Below, one piece after another: positions 42,984 through 49,150 of a stretch of 64,000 bases of DNA. A model generated the notes under the pieces. That model had not been told where the DNA came from, ran no database searches, and worked only from the letters and a program-made list of their open reading frames with translations. Both the position numbers and the translations under genes were made by a program. Numbering within the stretch: the stretch's first letter is position 1; each line of letters opens with the position of its first letter. This stretch comes from Comamonas granuli NBRC 101663 (GTDB lineage: Bacteria; Pseudomonadota; Gammaproteobacteria; Burkholderiales; Burkholderiaceae_C), in contig NZ_BBJX01000006.1 of assembly GCF_000739995.1 (NCBI RefSeq), forward strand, positions 62,001 to 126,000, given 5' to 3'.

Positions 42984-44741
42984 TCAGAACGAGGTCCAGT
43001 CGTCCGACGCCGCGTCACCGGCCTTGGCGCTGGCGCGGGGCTGCCCGCCCGCCAGGGCCGCCACCACGGGCTTCCTGCCACCCTGGACCGCCGGCGCCGG
43101 CTTGGCCGCGGAGGGCGCGCGTTGCACGAAGGCCGTGTGCTGGGCCGGCGGCGTGTAGGCTGCGGCAGGGGCGGCATCGCCGATCTTGAATACCGCCACG
43201 GCACTCACCAGCTGCTGCGCCTGCTGATTGAGGCTGTCGGCGGCGGAGGCGGACTCCTCCACCAGTGCCGCGTTCTGCTGCGTCACCTGGTCGAGCTGCA
43301 TCACGGCGTCGTTGATCTGGTCGATGCCGGCGGTCTGCTCCTTGGTGGCCGCATTGATTTCCGAGATCAGATCGGTCACGCGCCGGACCTGGGCCACGAT
43401 GTCCTGCATGGTGCTGCCCGCCTCGGTCACCAATTGGCCGCCGGCTTCCACCTTTTGCACGCTGTCGCCGATCAGCGACTTGATTTCCTTGGCCGCTTCG
43501 GCGCTGCGTCCTGCAAGACTGCGCACCTCCGAGGCCACCACGGCAAAGCCGCGGCCCTGCTCGCCCGCGCGGGCGGCCTCCACGGCGGCGTTGAGCGCCA
43601 GGATGTTGGTCTGGAAGGCGATGCCATCGATGACGCCGATGATGTCGGAGATCCTCTTGGAGGAGGCGTTGATCTCTTCCATCATGTGCACGACCTGCTG
43701 CACCACCTCGCCGCCCTTGACGGCCACGCCGCTGGCGGACTGGGCCAGTTGCGCCGCCTGCTGCGCGGTGTCGGAGTTGGTGCGCACCGTGCTGGAGAGC
43801 TCCTCCATGGAGGCGGCCGTCTCCTCCAGGTTGCTGGCCTGCTCCTCGGTGCGCTGGGAGAGGTCGGCGTTGCCCATGGCGATCTGGTTGGCGCCCGTCG
43901 CGATGCTGTCGCTGCTGCTGCGCACCGCACCCACGACCTGGCGCAGGGACTGCTGCATCTGCTGCATGGCATGGACCACGCTGCCCGGCCGGGCGTGCGA
44001 CGCATCGATGTGCGTGGCCAGGTCGCCGGCCGCGATGGCGCCGGCCACACTGGCCACGTCGGCCGGCTCGCCGCCCAACTGCCGGGTGATGCCGCGGGTC
44101 AGCATGACGCCGATGGCCACGCCTGCCAGCACACCGCCGATGGTCAGGCTGATGAGCAGGATGCGGATGTTGGCGTAGACCTCATCGGTTTCGTTGTTGA
44201 GGCGGTCGGCGTTGGCTTTCTTTCTCTCGACCAGCTCTGTCATCAAATCGTCGGCTTTGTTCGTCAGAGGAATCGCCACTTTGAACAAATGCTCGGTCGA
44301 TGCACGCTTGTCGCTCAGCTCTTCAGTGCGTAGCAATTGTTCGATCTGCTTGATGCTCGCCTCGAAGTCGCGTACCGCCTTCACCGCGTTGTCTACCAAC
44401 GCTTTGCCTTGCTCGGTGACAAAGGTCTTCTCGGCGGCGGTCAGCTCGGAGTAGACCCGCTGCACACGCTCATCGAGTTCCTTGAGGTTGTGGGCCCTGT
44501 CTTCCGTGCTGTTCGACAGAATCGCGGTGCGAATGGAGCGGGCGGCTGCGAGCAGTTGAATATTGGCTTCTGCGGCATGTCTCAGCCCTACGATTTCGCG
44601 TTCGTACATGATGCTGGCCATGTCGTTCATGTGTGCGGACTTGAGGATGCCCTGGATGCCAATGACCGCGCCGATGGCGGCGACCACCAGGAATCCGCTG
44701 ATCAGCTTGGCGCCGACCTTGAGGTTTTTGAACCAATCCAT
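42984..44741 (-). CDS. Methyl-accepting chemotaxis protein
   Basis: A 585-residue classical receptor with an N-terminal transmembrane helix (about 9-30) and a four-helix-bundle periplasmic domain (about 31-190). A second helix (about 192-213), a HAMP domain (about 214-268) and a cytoplasmic signalling domain with the hairpin tip [35 protein letters not shown] follow. The C-terminal tail is Ala/Pro-rich and ends DDWTSF, similar to the CheR-binding pentapeptide family (W-x-x-F). cheW is immediately upstream (26 bp), indicating an operon. The ligand cannot be inferred. Confidence 0.94.
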
Positions 44742-44767
44742 GTGACTTCTCCTTGAAGTTTGCGTAG

Positions 44768-45271
44768 TTAGGGTTGTTCTGTGTGCAGGGAGCCCAGGCC
44801 AGCGCCTTGGACAAGCTTCTCGATTTCCAGCAAAAGAATCATTCGCTCTGCGATGGAAGCGATACCGTGGAGGTAGCTGGTGTCCGCCGAAGCGCCGAAT
44901 CCGGGAGCCGGCTTGACGTCTGCGCGGGATATCTGGACTACGTCGTTGACACCGTCCACGACCATTCCGAGCACGGTGTCGCAGACATTGATCACGATGA
45001 CGACGGTGAAGCTGTCGTAATCTGGGTCTGGCAGGTCGAACAGCATGCGCAGATCGACGATGGGAACGATGCGGCCACGCAGGTTGATAACACCCTTGAC
45101 ATAGGCAGGAGCGTTGGCAATGCGTGTGGCGGCGTCGTAGCCCCGGATTTCCTGCACTCGCAGGATGTCGATGGCGTATTCCTCTTTGCCCAGGCGGAAA
45201 GTCAGGTACTCCGCGGCGATGGGTCCGACCGGAGAGGAAGTGGGTTCCTGTGGAGCAATGGCAAGGGTCAT
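44768..45271 (-). CDS. cheW: Chemotaxis coupling protein CheW
   Basis: A 167-residue CheW, linking receptors to the CheA kinase. Family blocks are present: [46 protein letters not shown] and [12 protein letters not shown]. The ATG at 45271 is preferred because similarity begins just after it. The frame stays open for 80 codons upstream, but those codons are not CheW-like and are probably leader. It is followed by the MCP gene 26 bp downstream. Confidence 0.95.
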
Positions 45272-45620
45272 GGGACGGATCCTCTGGGTGAGTGCCTGGT
45301 GTTGGAGGTACAGCGGGAGGCTTGAGGCAAAGCCTTGGCTGGGCTGCTGGTAGGCAGCCAGAAGAAAGGTCTCGCCCCTTTGCTGCGCCTCGGGCCGGAT
45401 TGCCGGCCAGGGGACATTAGCGGGCCCGAAACGCAGCAGCCAGGTCCCGTAGGGAAAAAACGCCAGGACGGGCGCGACCGCAAAACCGGAAACACTGAAA
45501 ACGGCTTCCATGGCTGCATCGACTAATTCCCCCCCCCCCAGGGGCGGGAGTTGGCCGAAAGTTTGCTCCTATGCCATACCTTTCAGCAGGAGGCCATAGG
45601 TCGGTGGCTTTGCAAGCTTG

Positions 45621-45644
45621 ATTTTGTCGCGTGTGCGACAAAAT
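45621..45644. promoter_or_regulatory. Perfect 10-bp inverted repeat (operator or hairpin)
   Basis: Arms ATTTTGTCGC (45621-45630) and GCGACAAAAT (45635-45644) flank GTGT. The symmetry could be a dimeric regulator's operator, or a hairpin. On either strand the distal arm ends in AAAAT rather than a clean T-run, so termination is less likely. It lies 350 bp upstream of cheW and 231 bp upstream of the receptor ATG. Confidence 0.5.
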
Positions 45645-45787
45645 CTGTTGCTGATTATTACATAAATTTACATTTTCCCTGTGCATTTAAGGGTAAACGC
45701 TTGTGCCGCTTGCAGTGGCGTCGGGTTTTCCGACCCCCGGGCCACCGGCACGCCCAAGCGAACCGGCGGCCAGTCCCATCTGCTGGG

Positions 45788-45801
45788 TTGACGATAGTCA
45801 A
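45788..45801 (+). promoter_or_regulatory. FNR/DNR-like palindrome upstream of the first Aer-like gene
   Basis: TTGAC-GATA-GTCAA is a symmetric variant of the FNR consensus TTGAT-N4-ATCAA. A -10-like TAATAT at 45823-45828 would place the start point near 45836, making the palindrome centre about -41.5, the class II activator position. No protein binding has been shown. Confidence 0.5.
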
Positions 45802-45875
45802 AAGATGGATGTAACGCGAAGTTAATATGCATTTCCGATACTTCATTCCATCGCTTTTTTCCAAGGTCTGCCCCC

Positions 45876-47438
45876 ATGCGTGTCAATCTGCCGGTCAGCG
45901 AGCATGAATACGACTATCCGGGTGAAGAACTCCTGATGTCCACCACCGACAACAAGGGCGTCATCACGCACTGCAACGCGGCGTTCATGCGGGTCAGCGG
46001 CTACACCATGGACGAGCTCATGGGCCAGCCGCACAACCTGATCCGCCACCCCGACATGCCGCCCGAGGCGTTCAAGGACCTGTGGTCCACCATCGGCCAT
46101 GGGCGCAGCTGGTGCGGCATCGTGAAGAACCGGCGCAAGAATGGCGACTACTACTGGGTGCGTGCCCATGTCACACCCATCGTGGTCAATGGCAAACCCC
46201 GGGGCTATATGTCGGTGCGCGCCAAGCCCACGCGCGAGGAGGTGCGCGCGGCCGAGGCGCTGTACGACCGGATCCGCCAGGAGCGCGAGGCGGGCGTGAG
46301 CAGCTTCGTGCTGCACGCGGGCCGTGTGCGGCATACCGGCTGGCGCGACTGGGTCGGCAAGCTGCAGCGCGCCAGCTTCACGCAGCGCCTGGCGGTGATG
46401 ATGCTGCCGCTGCTGGCCGTGGCCCTGGCGCCCGCGCTGCTGGGCTGGCGCGGCGCAGACGTGGCTGTCGCCCAGGCCGTGCTGATGGTGGCGTGGGCAG
46501 CACTGATCCTGTGGCGCTTTCACCGGCGCATCACCTATGCACTGAACGATGCCAACCGGCTGGCGCGCGACATCGCCGGCTGCAATCTGGGCACCTCGGG
46601 CTGCCAGGCCGATGGCCGCCATCCCATGGCGCTGCTGATCGAGCGCCTGCACCAGATCCAGATCAACCTGCGCGCCGTGGTGGGCGATGCGCGCGGCGAG
46701 ATCGGCGCCTTCGGGCGCATTTCCGCCGAGATCGCGCAGGGCGCGCAGGACCTGTCGGCACGTACCGAGTCGCAGGCCAGCAGCCTGGAGCAGACGGCCG
46801 CGTCCATGGAGGAGCTCTCCAGCACGGTGCGCCAGTCGGCCGACGCGGCGCAGCAGGTGCTCAAGGAGAGCGAACGCAGCGCCGACCTCGCCCAGCGCGG
46901 CGGCCAGGCCGTGGCCGAGGTGGGCAGCGTGGTGCAGGCGATCGAGCAGTCCTCGCGCAAGATGGGGCAGATCATCGCCACTATCGAGGGCATCGCGTTC
47001 CAGACCAACATCCTGGCGCTCAATGCCGCCGTGGAGGCGGCGCGCGCGGGCGAGCAGGGGCGCGGCTTTGCCGTGGTGGCCAGCGAGGTGCGCGCGCTGG
47101 CGCAGCGCAGCGCCACGGCGGCGGGCGAGATCCGCGGGCTGATCGGCGAGTCCAGTGCGCACATCGGGCGCGGTGCGCAGCAGATGCAGTCGGCCGGCCA
47201 GACCATCGCGCAGGTGGTGCAGTCCGTGGCCCATGTGAATGAGCTCATGGGCCAGATCGGCGTGGCCACGCGCGAGCAGTCCATAGGCATCGCCCAGGTG
47301 AACGACGCCGTGACCGACCTGGACCGCGTGACGCAGCAGAACGCCGCGCTGGTGGAGGAGTCCGCTGCATCGGCGCGCTCCATGAGCAATTATGCGGGCG
47401 TGCTGGGACGCACGCTGGACGTCTTCAAGCTGCCCTGA
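45876..47438 (+). CDS. Aer-like redox chemoreceptor (PAS plus MCP domain), copy 1
   Basis: A 520-residue receptor with no periplasmic domain. The N-terminal PAS domain (about 10-118) carries the Aer-type segment [21 protein letters not shown], part of the FAD-binding PAS of aerotaxis receptors. Two hydrophobic stretches (about 165-215) anchor it in the membrane, followed by a short linker and the MCP signalling domain with [29 protein letters not shown]. No CheR pentapeptide is present (it ends VFKLP). A strongly similar paralogue lies immediately downstream. The predicted role is energy or oxygen taxis. Confidence 0.92.
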
Positions 47439-47517
47439 GAGGCCGGAGCGCAGGGCGGCTGCGCCGCACGCCGGGGCGCGTGGCCCGGCAGTGGTCGGGG
47501 ACTTGGGTAATGTTGTC

Positions 47518-47531
47518 TTGATTTGCATCAA
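47518..47531 (+). promoter_or_regulatory. FNR-type palindrome upstream of the second Aer-like gene
   Basis: TTGAT-TTGC-ATCAA is a perfect match to the FNR consensus TTGAT-N4-ATCAA. It lies about 66 bp before the ATG at 47591, centre to start. It is nested in a wider dyad, AATGTT (47509-47514) against AACATT (47537-47542). TAAATT at 47545-47550 is a possible -10, but the spacing does not fit class II activation. Confidence 0.65.
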
Positions 47532-47590
47532 CGAGTAACATTTGTAAATTCCAGCCGCTTCCAGGGTGGGACGAACAAGGAACCCTGTCG

Positions 47591-49150
47591 ATGCGCCTGA
47601 ATTTGCCGGTCACCCAGCGTGAATACCATTTCCCCCCGGAAAGCATGCTGGTGTCCATCACCGACACCCAGGGTGTCATCCAGCACTGCAACCCGGCCTT
47701 CATCGAGACCAGCGGGTTCAGCCGCGATGAGCTGCTGGGGCAGCCGCACAACCTGGTGCGCCACCCCGACATGCCGGCCCAGGCCTACCAGGACATGTGG
47801 CGCACCATAGGCCGCGGCGAGCCCTGGACGGGGCTGGTGAAGAACCGCCGCAAGAATGGCGACCACTACTGGGTGCGGGCGAATGTCACCCCCATCCTGG
47901 AAGGCGGCCGCCCGCGGGGCTATATGTCGGTGCGCACCCGTCCGAGTGCGGCGCAAGTGGCGGCCGCCGAGGCGCTGTACGCCCGCATGCGCGACGAAGC
48001 GGCCTCGGGGCGCTGCAGTTTCACGCTCGAATCCGGCCAGGTGCGCTACCGTGGCCTCAAGGGGCTGGGGCAGTGGGCCGGGCAGCGGCCGCTGCTGCAG
48101 CGCATGGCCGGCGGCTTGGCGCTGCTCGTGCTGCTGGCGCTGCTGCCCGATGCGGCGGGCTGGCAGGGCGGCGCCGCCGTTGCCGCGCGGGCCGCATTGC
48201 TGCTGCTCGGCGCGGGCTGGGTGCTGTGGCGCTTTCAGGCCGCGGTGCTGGCGGGAATGCAGGAGGCCTGCCGCTTTGCCGCGGACATTTCCGTGTGCAA
48301 CCTGACCACCACGGTGGCGACGGACTTTCCCCAGCCCCTGGGCGCGCTGATGCAGCGGCTGCAGCAGACGCAGGTGAATCTGCGCGCCGTGGTCGGCGAT
48401 GTGCGCGCGCAGGTGGGCAGCCTGACGGCCGCGGCGGGGTCCATCACTCAAGGCAGCAATGACCTGTCGGCGCGCACCGAAGCGCAGGCCGCCAGCCTGG
48501 AGGAGACGGCCGCCTCCATGGAGGAGCTGTCCGGCACCGTCCGGCAGACGGCCGGTATCGCCGCCCAGGTGTCGCAGGAAAGCGCCCACAGCAGCGCGAC
48601 GGCCTTGCGCGGCGGGCAGGCGGTGCAGGCCGTCGGGGCGGCCATGCAGCAGATGCAGCAGTCGTCCGGCAAGATCGGCGAGATCGTGGGCGTCATCGAA
48701 GGCATTGCGTTTCAGACCAATCTGCTGGCGCTCAACGCGGCCGTGGAGGCGGCCCGTGCGGGCGAGCAGGGCCGCGGGTTTGCCGTGGTCGCCTCCGAGG
48801 TGCGCGCGCTGGCGCAGCGCAGCGCCGCCGCCGCCCAGGAGGTGCGCGGCATGATCGCGGCCACGGTGGAGCAGGTCTCTGGCGGCGCCCAGCAGATGGA
48901 CCATGCGGCCGCCACCATCCAGGAGGTGGTTGGCGCCGTGCAGCGGGTGTCCACCATGGTGCAGCAGATCAGCCAGGCCACCCAGGAGCAGGCGCTGGGC
49001 ATTACGCAGGTGAACGAGGCCGTCACCCAGCTCGACAGCGCCACCCGGCAAAACGCCGTGCTGGTGGAGGAGTCTGCGGCTTCGGCGCAAGGCCTGCGGG
49101 CCAGCGCGGTATCGCTGGGCCTGTCGGTGAACGTCTTCCAGCTGCCCTGA
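47591..49150 (+). CDS. Aer-like redox chemoreceptor (PAS plus MCP domain), copy 2
   Basis: A 519-residue paralogue of the upstream receptor with the same architecture: PAS with [21 protein letters not shown] (about 50-70), membrane stretch (about 165-215) and MCP signalling domain with [29 protein letters not shown]. It ends VFQLP. The similarity to copy 1 is high through PAS and signalling domains and lower in the membrane region. The first residues ([17 protein letters not shown]) match copy 1 too. It has its own leader of 152 bp with an FNR-type palindrome, so the two receptors may be separately controlled. Confidence 0.92.

Follow-up and report, generated by a model that had tools for sequence, protein, structure and literature searches.

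Two tandem Aer-like receptor genes

The 64-kb stretch of Comamonas granuli NBRC 101663 DNA that was analysed (the window) contains two energy-taxis receptor genes in tandem, whose products are 55% identical:

45876..47438, plus strand: Aer-like copy 1, 520 aa, with Pfam PAS_3 and MCPsignal domains
47591..49150, plus strand: Aer-like copy 2, 519 aa, with a PAS and an MCP signalling domain (Pfam)

Both proteins combine an N-terminal PAS domain and an MCP signalling domain with homology to a solved aerotaxis receptor, and were therefore assigned to the Aer type. Copy 1 aligned with the aerotaxis receptor chain 31cj over most of its length (E=6.5e-103), and the alignment included a GQPHNxxRHPDMP block. 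The search against structure chains was performed with copy 1 only, and the assignment of copy 2 goes through its identity to copy 1. The chains 31cj and 8dik, both titled 'Aerotaxis receptor', are presumably E. coli Aer.

The pair is adjoined by a CheW-domain gene (Pfam PF01584) on the minus strand and by a further minus-strand chemoreceptor gene at 42984-44741, which has an MCP-signal match at L248. Together these two genes span 42984-45511 and form a small chemotaxis cluster beside the Aer pair. In five genomes of the genus (G001, G003, G015, G016 and G022) the receptor order was the reverse of that seen here, so that the gene with less similarity to copy 1 lies 5' of the other. The intergenic region between the CheW gene and copy 1 contains a run of 11 C at 45529-45539, possibly a slippage tract; a C run was also present 5' of the Aer-like gene at an Alicycliphilus MAG locus (L041). 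The same region holds a perfect inverted repeat at 45620-45645, GATTTTGTCGC-gtgt-GCGACAAAATC. As a conserved operator this repeat was rejected, since its core was found in one of the 26 genus genomes, namely once in the present one.

Two FNR-type palindromes upstream of the receptor genes

Searching with the pattern TTGAYNNNNRTCAA, in which inverted half-sites flank a spacer of 4 nt (TTGAY-N4-RTCAA), returned exactly two matches in the window, one 5' of each receptor gene:

45788-45801, plus strand: FNR-type palindrome TTGACGATAGTCAA, 5' of Aer-like copy 1, starting 88 nt before its ATG
47518-47531, plus strand: FNR-type palindrome TTGATTTGCATCAA, 5' of Aer-like copy 2, starting 73 nt before its ATG

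A sequence-only reading of this DNA had named palindromes at 45788 and 47518, and both were recovered exactly as it had written them. Dinucleotide shuffles of the window contained on average 0.03 matches, and two or more occurred in one of 100 shuffles. Identity as CRP sites was rejected: the CRP pattern TGTGA-N6-TCACA fits neither palindrome and was present in only one of the 184 Aer-like upstream regions described below.

Distribution of the motif in the genome

The 3.5-Mb genome contained 16 sites matching TTGAYNNNNRTCAA, compared to 2 for a reversed-pattern control. Across 26 genomes of the genus the numbers were 8-26 per genome for the motif and 1-12 for the reversed pattern. When the coordinates of the 16 sites were compared by eye with those of the 28 MCP-signal matches of the genome, the two sites of the window were the only ones adjoining any such match, and the next-nearest pair of site and match lay ∼14 kb apart. 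From their gene contexts and Pfam matches, seven of the 14 other sites were judged to stand at classical FNR-type genes. The domains named below come from Pfam, and the contexts are ones that we take, from established knowledge, to be classical FNR/ANR targets:

haem-copper oxidase subunit I gene, ccoN-like by reading
HMA/E1-E2 copper-type ATPase gene and Usp gene, in divergent orientation
hemN and fnr, as a divergent pair
OmpW gene
cytochrome c gene
operon of a 4Fe-4S protein and NrfD
divergently arranged tetrapyrrole methylase and cytochrome c genes, adjoined by a cytochrome-d1-type gene

No classical FNR context was seen at the remaining seven of the 14 sites:

L016: Crp/Fnr-family gene
L017: end of an ORF, ∼560 nt before a TonB-plug gene
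L024: solute-binding protein gene
L026: no clear gene
L027: DUF2189 gene
L028: beta-eliminating lyase gene
L029: MFS transporter gene

The FNR-type site at L016 (1501-1514) precedes by a few tens of bases the probable start codon (ATG) of L008, a short gene of the Crp/Fnr family; its position hints at a regulatory cascade.

The motif variant TTGACGATGGTCAA, identical to the copy 1 site except for a single base, was found at both the ATPase/Usp gene pair and the cytochrome-d1-type gene cluster, and the type of half-site therefore does not separate the possible readers. This bears on the proposal, made from the letters alone, that the two receptor genes may answer to different regulators because their half-sites differ. 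The proposal was not supported: TTGAC...GTCAA also precedes the ccoN-, copper-ATPase- and nir-type genes, and a relative of copy 1 (L127) has TTGAT...ATCAA in the same slot. As both half-site types occur at FNR-type targets of this genome and in the slot of copy 1, separate regulators for each type were rejected.

Recurrence of the site upstream of related receptor genes

Upstream regions of Aer-like genes were collected from the named genomes, the genus and the family among the matches listed. Those of the family search included 59 further upstream regions, taken from the matches listed mostly in rank order with some skipped. Of loci L030-L244, 37 have no row of their own in the counts. Among them are three near-duplicates (L043, L055 and L241), loci taken as repeats of genes already counted, and two matches to other chemoreceptors (L134 and L135). 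Starts also had to fit the pattern M-[RKQ]-x-N-[LMQ]-P-[VIT]; L049, L066, L080 and L164 were taken as missing it, and nine upstream regions with starts off the motif were added by hand. In total 184 upstream regions were left. As control class we used genes related to the adjacent chemoreceptor gene (42984-44741 in the window), with approximate start codons. Its 67 upstream regions were made up of those of 27 of 30 loci, the three others having matches that began no earlier than residue 67, and of 40 more upstream regions taken mostly in rank order among the matches listed.

An exact site was present within 250 nt in 35 of the 184 Aer-like upstream regions (33 of 182 without the two window genes). 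The enrichment was specific to the spacer length, as alternative spacers of 0-12 gave 0-2 matches each in the same set; the reversed pattern gave none, and shuffled controls had a mean of 0.19 and a maximum of 3. In the control class, two of the 67 upstream regions had an exact site (Fisher p=0.001 versus the Aer-like set). The site is thus not peculiar to Aer; in these two upstream regions, L315 and L324, the exact palindrome lies at about -100.

On a tree of 128 receptor proteins, 21 of which had the site, 15 changes were needed to explain its distribution, at least 13 of them forced by starred branches. None of 500 shuffles was as low as 15 (mean 19.8). The site is clustered on the receptor tree, yet with 15 changes across 128 rows it is easily gained or lost. 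The smallest starred clade of copy 1 had an exact site in four of its 28 rows (L018, L126, L127 and L031). Around copy 2, successive starred clades had exact sites in 3/3, then 4/8 (the clade that includes L159) and then 4/12 rows. The three nearest relatives of copy 2 (L157, L158 and L159) all have an exact site 5' of the gene, and the next three (L161, L162 and L163) do not.

Promoter layout at the two sites

In class II FNR promoters the regulator site is centred near -41.5 and overlaps the -35 region. Two promoter elements were considered in the window:

45823..45828, plus strand: putative -10 hexamer TAATAT of copy 1, 21 nt past the palindrome, with the same gap in relatives
47513..47541, plus strand: candidate core promoter TTGTCT-N17-TAACAT of copy 2, read by hand, 8/12 matches, weak

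If TAATAT is read as -12 to -7, the centre of the copy 1 palindrome falls at about -40.5 to -41.5. By sequence, copy 1 therefore resembles a class II FNR promoter, in which the centre lies near -41.5 and the -10 element follows the palindrome by ∼22 nt. A hexamer stands at the same gap of 21 nt in copy 1 (TAATAT), L126 (TAATAT), L127 (TAGTAT) and L031 (TACCAT), the last being a Giesbergeria MAG locus. The spacing between palindrome and hexamer is kept in these four while much of the other upstream sequence differs. In L127, TTGAT/ATCAA replaces the TTGAC/GTCAA of copy 1, so that both half-sites are altered symmetrically and the palindrome is preserved. Of the 35 sites, no others than these four have TAnnnT at gap 21, and gaps of 22, 23 and 24 to TAnnnT occur in one, one and two. 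All four belong to one clade, and the shared layout of L126, L127 and L031 thus does not provide independent cases. The spacing common to the four upstream regions is in line with copy 1 being activated in class II fashion, the most likely mode at this promoter. The class II position claimed for copy 1 in the sequence-only reading agrees with this layout, that is, with a gap of 21, a centre near -41 and the same arrangement in L126, L127 and L031.

Copy 2, unlike class II FNR promoters, does not have this layout. When the spacing of copy 1 is applied to it, the -10 position lands on GC-rich sequence, and the best hexamer at gaps 19-25 matches at one of six positions. No convincing -10 at class II spacing was seen in copy 2 or in L157-L159, and a class II layout common to both copies was accordingly rejected. 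In the candidate promoter TTGTCT-N17-TAACAT, the copy 2 palindrome would fall between the -35 and the -10; if this promoter is used, the palindrome would be a repressor site. The promoter scan did not report this candidate, and no counterpart of it was seen upstream of L157 or L158. The scan for terminator-like sites found none on the plus strand between the two genes, so that readthrough from copy 1 into copy 2 is possible.

Candidate regulators and proposed control of the receptor pair

The genome encodes an Fnr protein (L001) that passes the NCBIfam Fnr cut-off (234.1 versus 228 bits). Its CxxCx5C cluster and a fourth Cys, four cluster cysteines in all, align with those of solved FNR, and its recognition helix is ETVSR. 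Three further Crp/Fnr proteins (L002, L003 and L008) have an ETxSR-type recognition helix as read from the sequence, and none of the three reaches a curated family cut-off. The genome also has narG and genes of the cytochrome-d1 type.

Taken together, both Aer-type genes are likely to be under FNR-family control via the palindromes. The earlier idea of FNR-family sites before Aer-type receptors is supported by the occurrence of the motif at FNR-type genes, by the presence of a four-cysteine Fnr and by the recurrence in 35 of 184 upstream regions. The reader of both palindromes would most likely be the genome's own oxygen-sensing four-cysteine Fnr, which at low oxygen would dimerise, bind both sites and alter the transcription of both receptor genes. 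At copy 1, where the site overlaps the -35 region and stands 21 nt before TAATAT, Fnr would most likely act as a class II activator. Copy 2 has its own site, common to its closest relatives, and may in addition be transcribed by readthrough from copy 1. The oxygen level probably helps to set the amount of both receptors made. We infer binding, the direction of the effect and the oxygen response at both sites from the DNA sequence. Several points weigh against control by Fnr: 24 of the 28 rows in the copy 1 clade, and four of the eight in the copy 2 clade with L159, are without an exact site; the site is easily gained or lost; copy 2 shows no class II -10; the control class of chemoreceptors has the site in two cases; and half of the 14 other genomic sites show no classical FNR context.

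Instead of Fnr, another Crp/Fnr member, a NO sensor of the DNR/NNR type, might be the main reader, in which case the receptors would follow nitrogen oxides and not oxygen. For such a reader speak L002, L003 and L008 with their ETxSR-type helix, the narG and cytochrome-d1-type genes, and the position of TTGACGATGGTCAA in front of the d1-type gene cluster. The same TTGACGATGGTCAA, however, also lies between the copper-type ATPase and Usp genes, a classical FNR position, and the failure of all three proteins to reach any curated cut-off means that no NO sensor is established. The motif is common to DNR/NNR and FNR sites. We regard a NO sensor as main reader as improbable. That the palindromes are functionless chance matches near receptor genes appears very unlikely. 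The presence of the exact site in only 4/28 rows of the copy 1 clade would be in line with chance, but the recurrence is spacer-specific (35/184 versus 0-2), palindrome and hexamer spacing is common to four upstream regions, and the genome holds 16 sites versus 2 for the control.

Within control by Fnr, the two receptors might be swapped as oxygen falls, with Fnr activating copy 1 from its class II position and repressing copy 2. Such a swap would fit the restriction of the class II layout to copy 1, no class II -10 being seen at copy 2, L157 or L158, as well as the candidate TTGTCT-N17-TAACAT promoter that spans the copy 2 palindrome. It would also have a parallel in the repression of aerotaxis receptors by FnrL in R. 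capsulatus (PMC4634722). The copy 2 promoter is weak, however, the scan did not report it and no counterpart was seen in L157 or L158, and readthrough from copy 1 would blunt the repression of copy 2; we therefore consider a swap unlikely. If it does take place, falling oxygen would replace one energy sensor by a second with a different working range. Control of both genes by Fnr would suggest more generally that oxygen can alter the set of receptors present in a cell, beyond how the receptors signal, and from the recurrence of the site, control of energy-taxis receptors by FNR-family regulators would seem to be widespread in the Burkholderiales, though with a patchy distribution. The two upstream regions offer a simple, testable promoter pair.

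Comparison with known systems

A review describes ANR as a modulator of aer in P. aeruginosa (PMC13401364, citing Hong et al., 2004), and Anr boxes have been predicted at aer in Pseudomonas (PMC6588701). In R. capsulatus, FnrL is reported to repress two aerotaxis receptors by a direct or an indirect route (PMC4634722). The aerotaxis receptor BCAM2563 of B. cenocepacia H111 had an RNA-seq fold change of 10.3 in micro-oxia, and in the same study motility genes as a class were enriched among those down in micro-oxia (PMC3759415). For H. seropedicae, also of the Burkholderiales, a ChIP-based study of Fnr places an fnr1 site centred at -42, and its main text makes no reference to aerotaxis, chemotaxis or motility (PMC5934665). 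In P. putida under pressure, aer-1 changes without a clear bearing on oxygen (PMC3621253).

Like E. coli Aer, the receptors described here have a PAS and MCP signalling architecture over most of their length; unlike it, they occur as two tandem copies. Their PAS domain is a putative FAD binder, with the conserved RHPDMP block in the copy 1 alignment. FNR-family control of aerotaxis receptors has been reported in principle, activating in Pseudomonas and repressing in Rhodobacter. As in R. capsulatus, an FNR-type regulator is predicted here to act on aerotaxis receptor genes. Since FnrL represses there (PMC4634722), precedent does not fix the direction of control; in contrast to that repression, be it direct or indirect, the layout of copy 1 suggests activation. 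With Pseudomonas the locus shares predicted FNR-family boxes at an Aer-type receptor gene (PMC13401364, PMC6588701), and it differs in that the receptors form a tandem pair in a Comamonadaceae-type genome, with a site for each, their regulation being predicted from sequence only. As far as the searches show, the literature gains from this locus a receptor pair in which both genes have a site of their own, and a site that recurs patchily among Burkholderiales.
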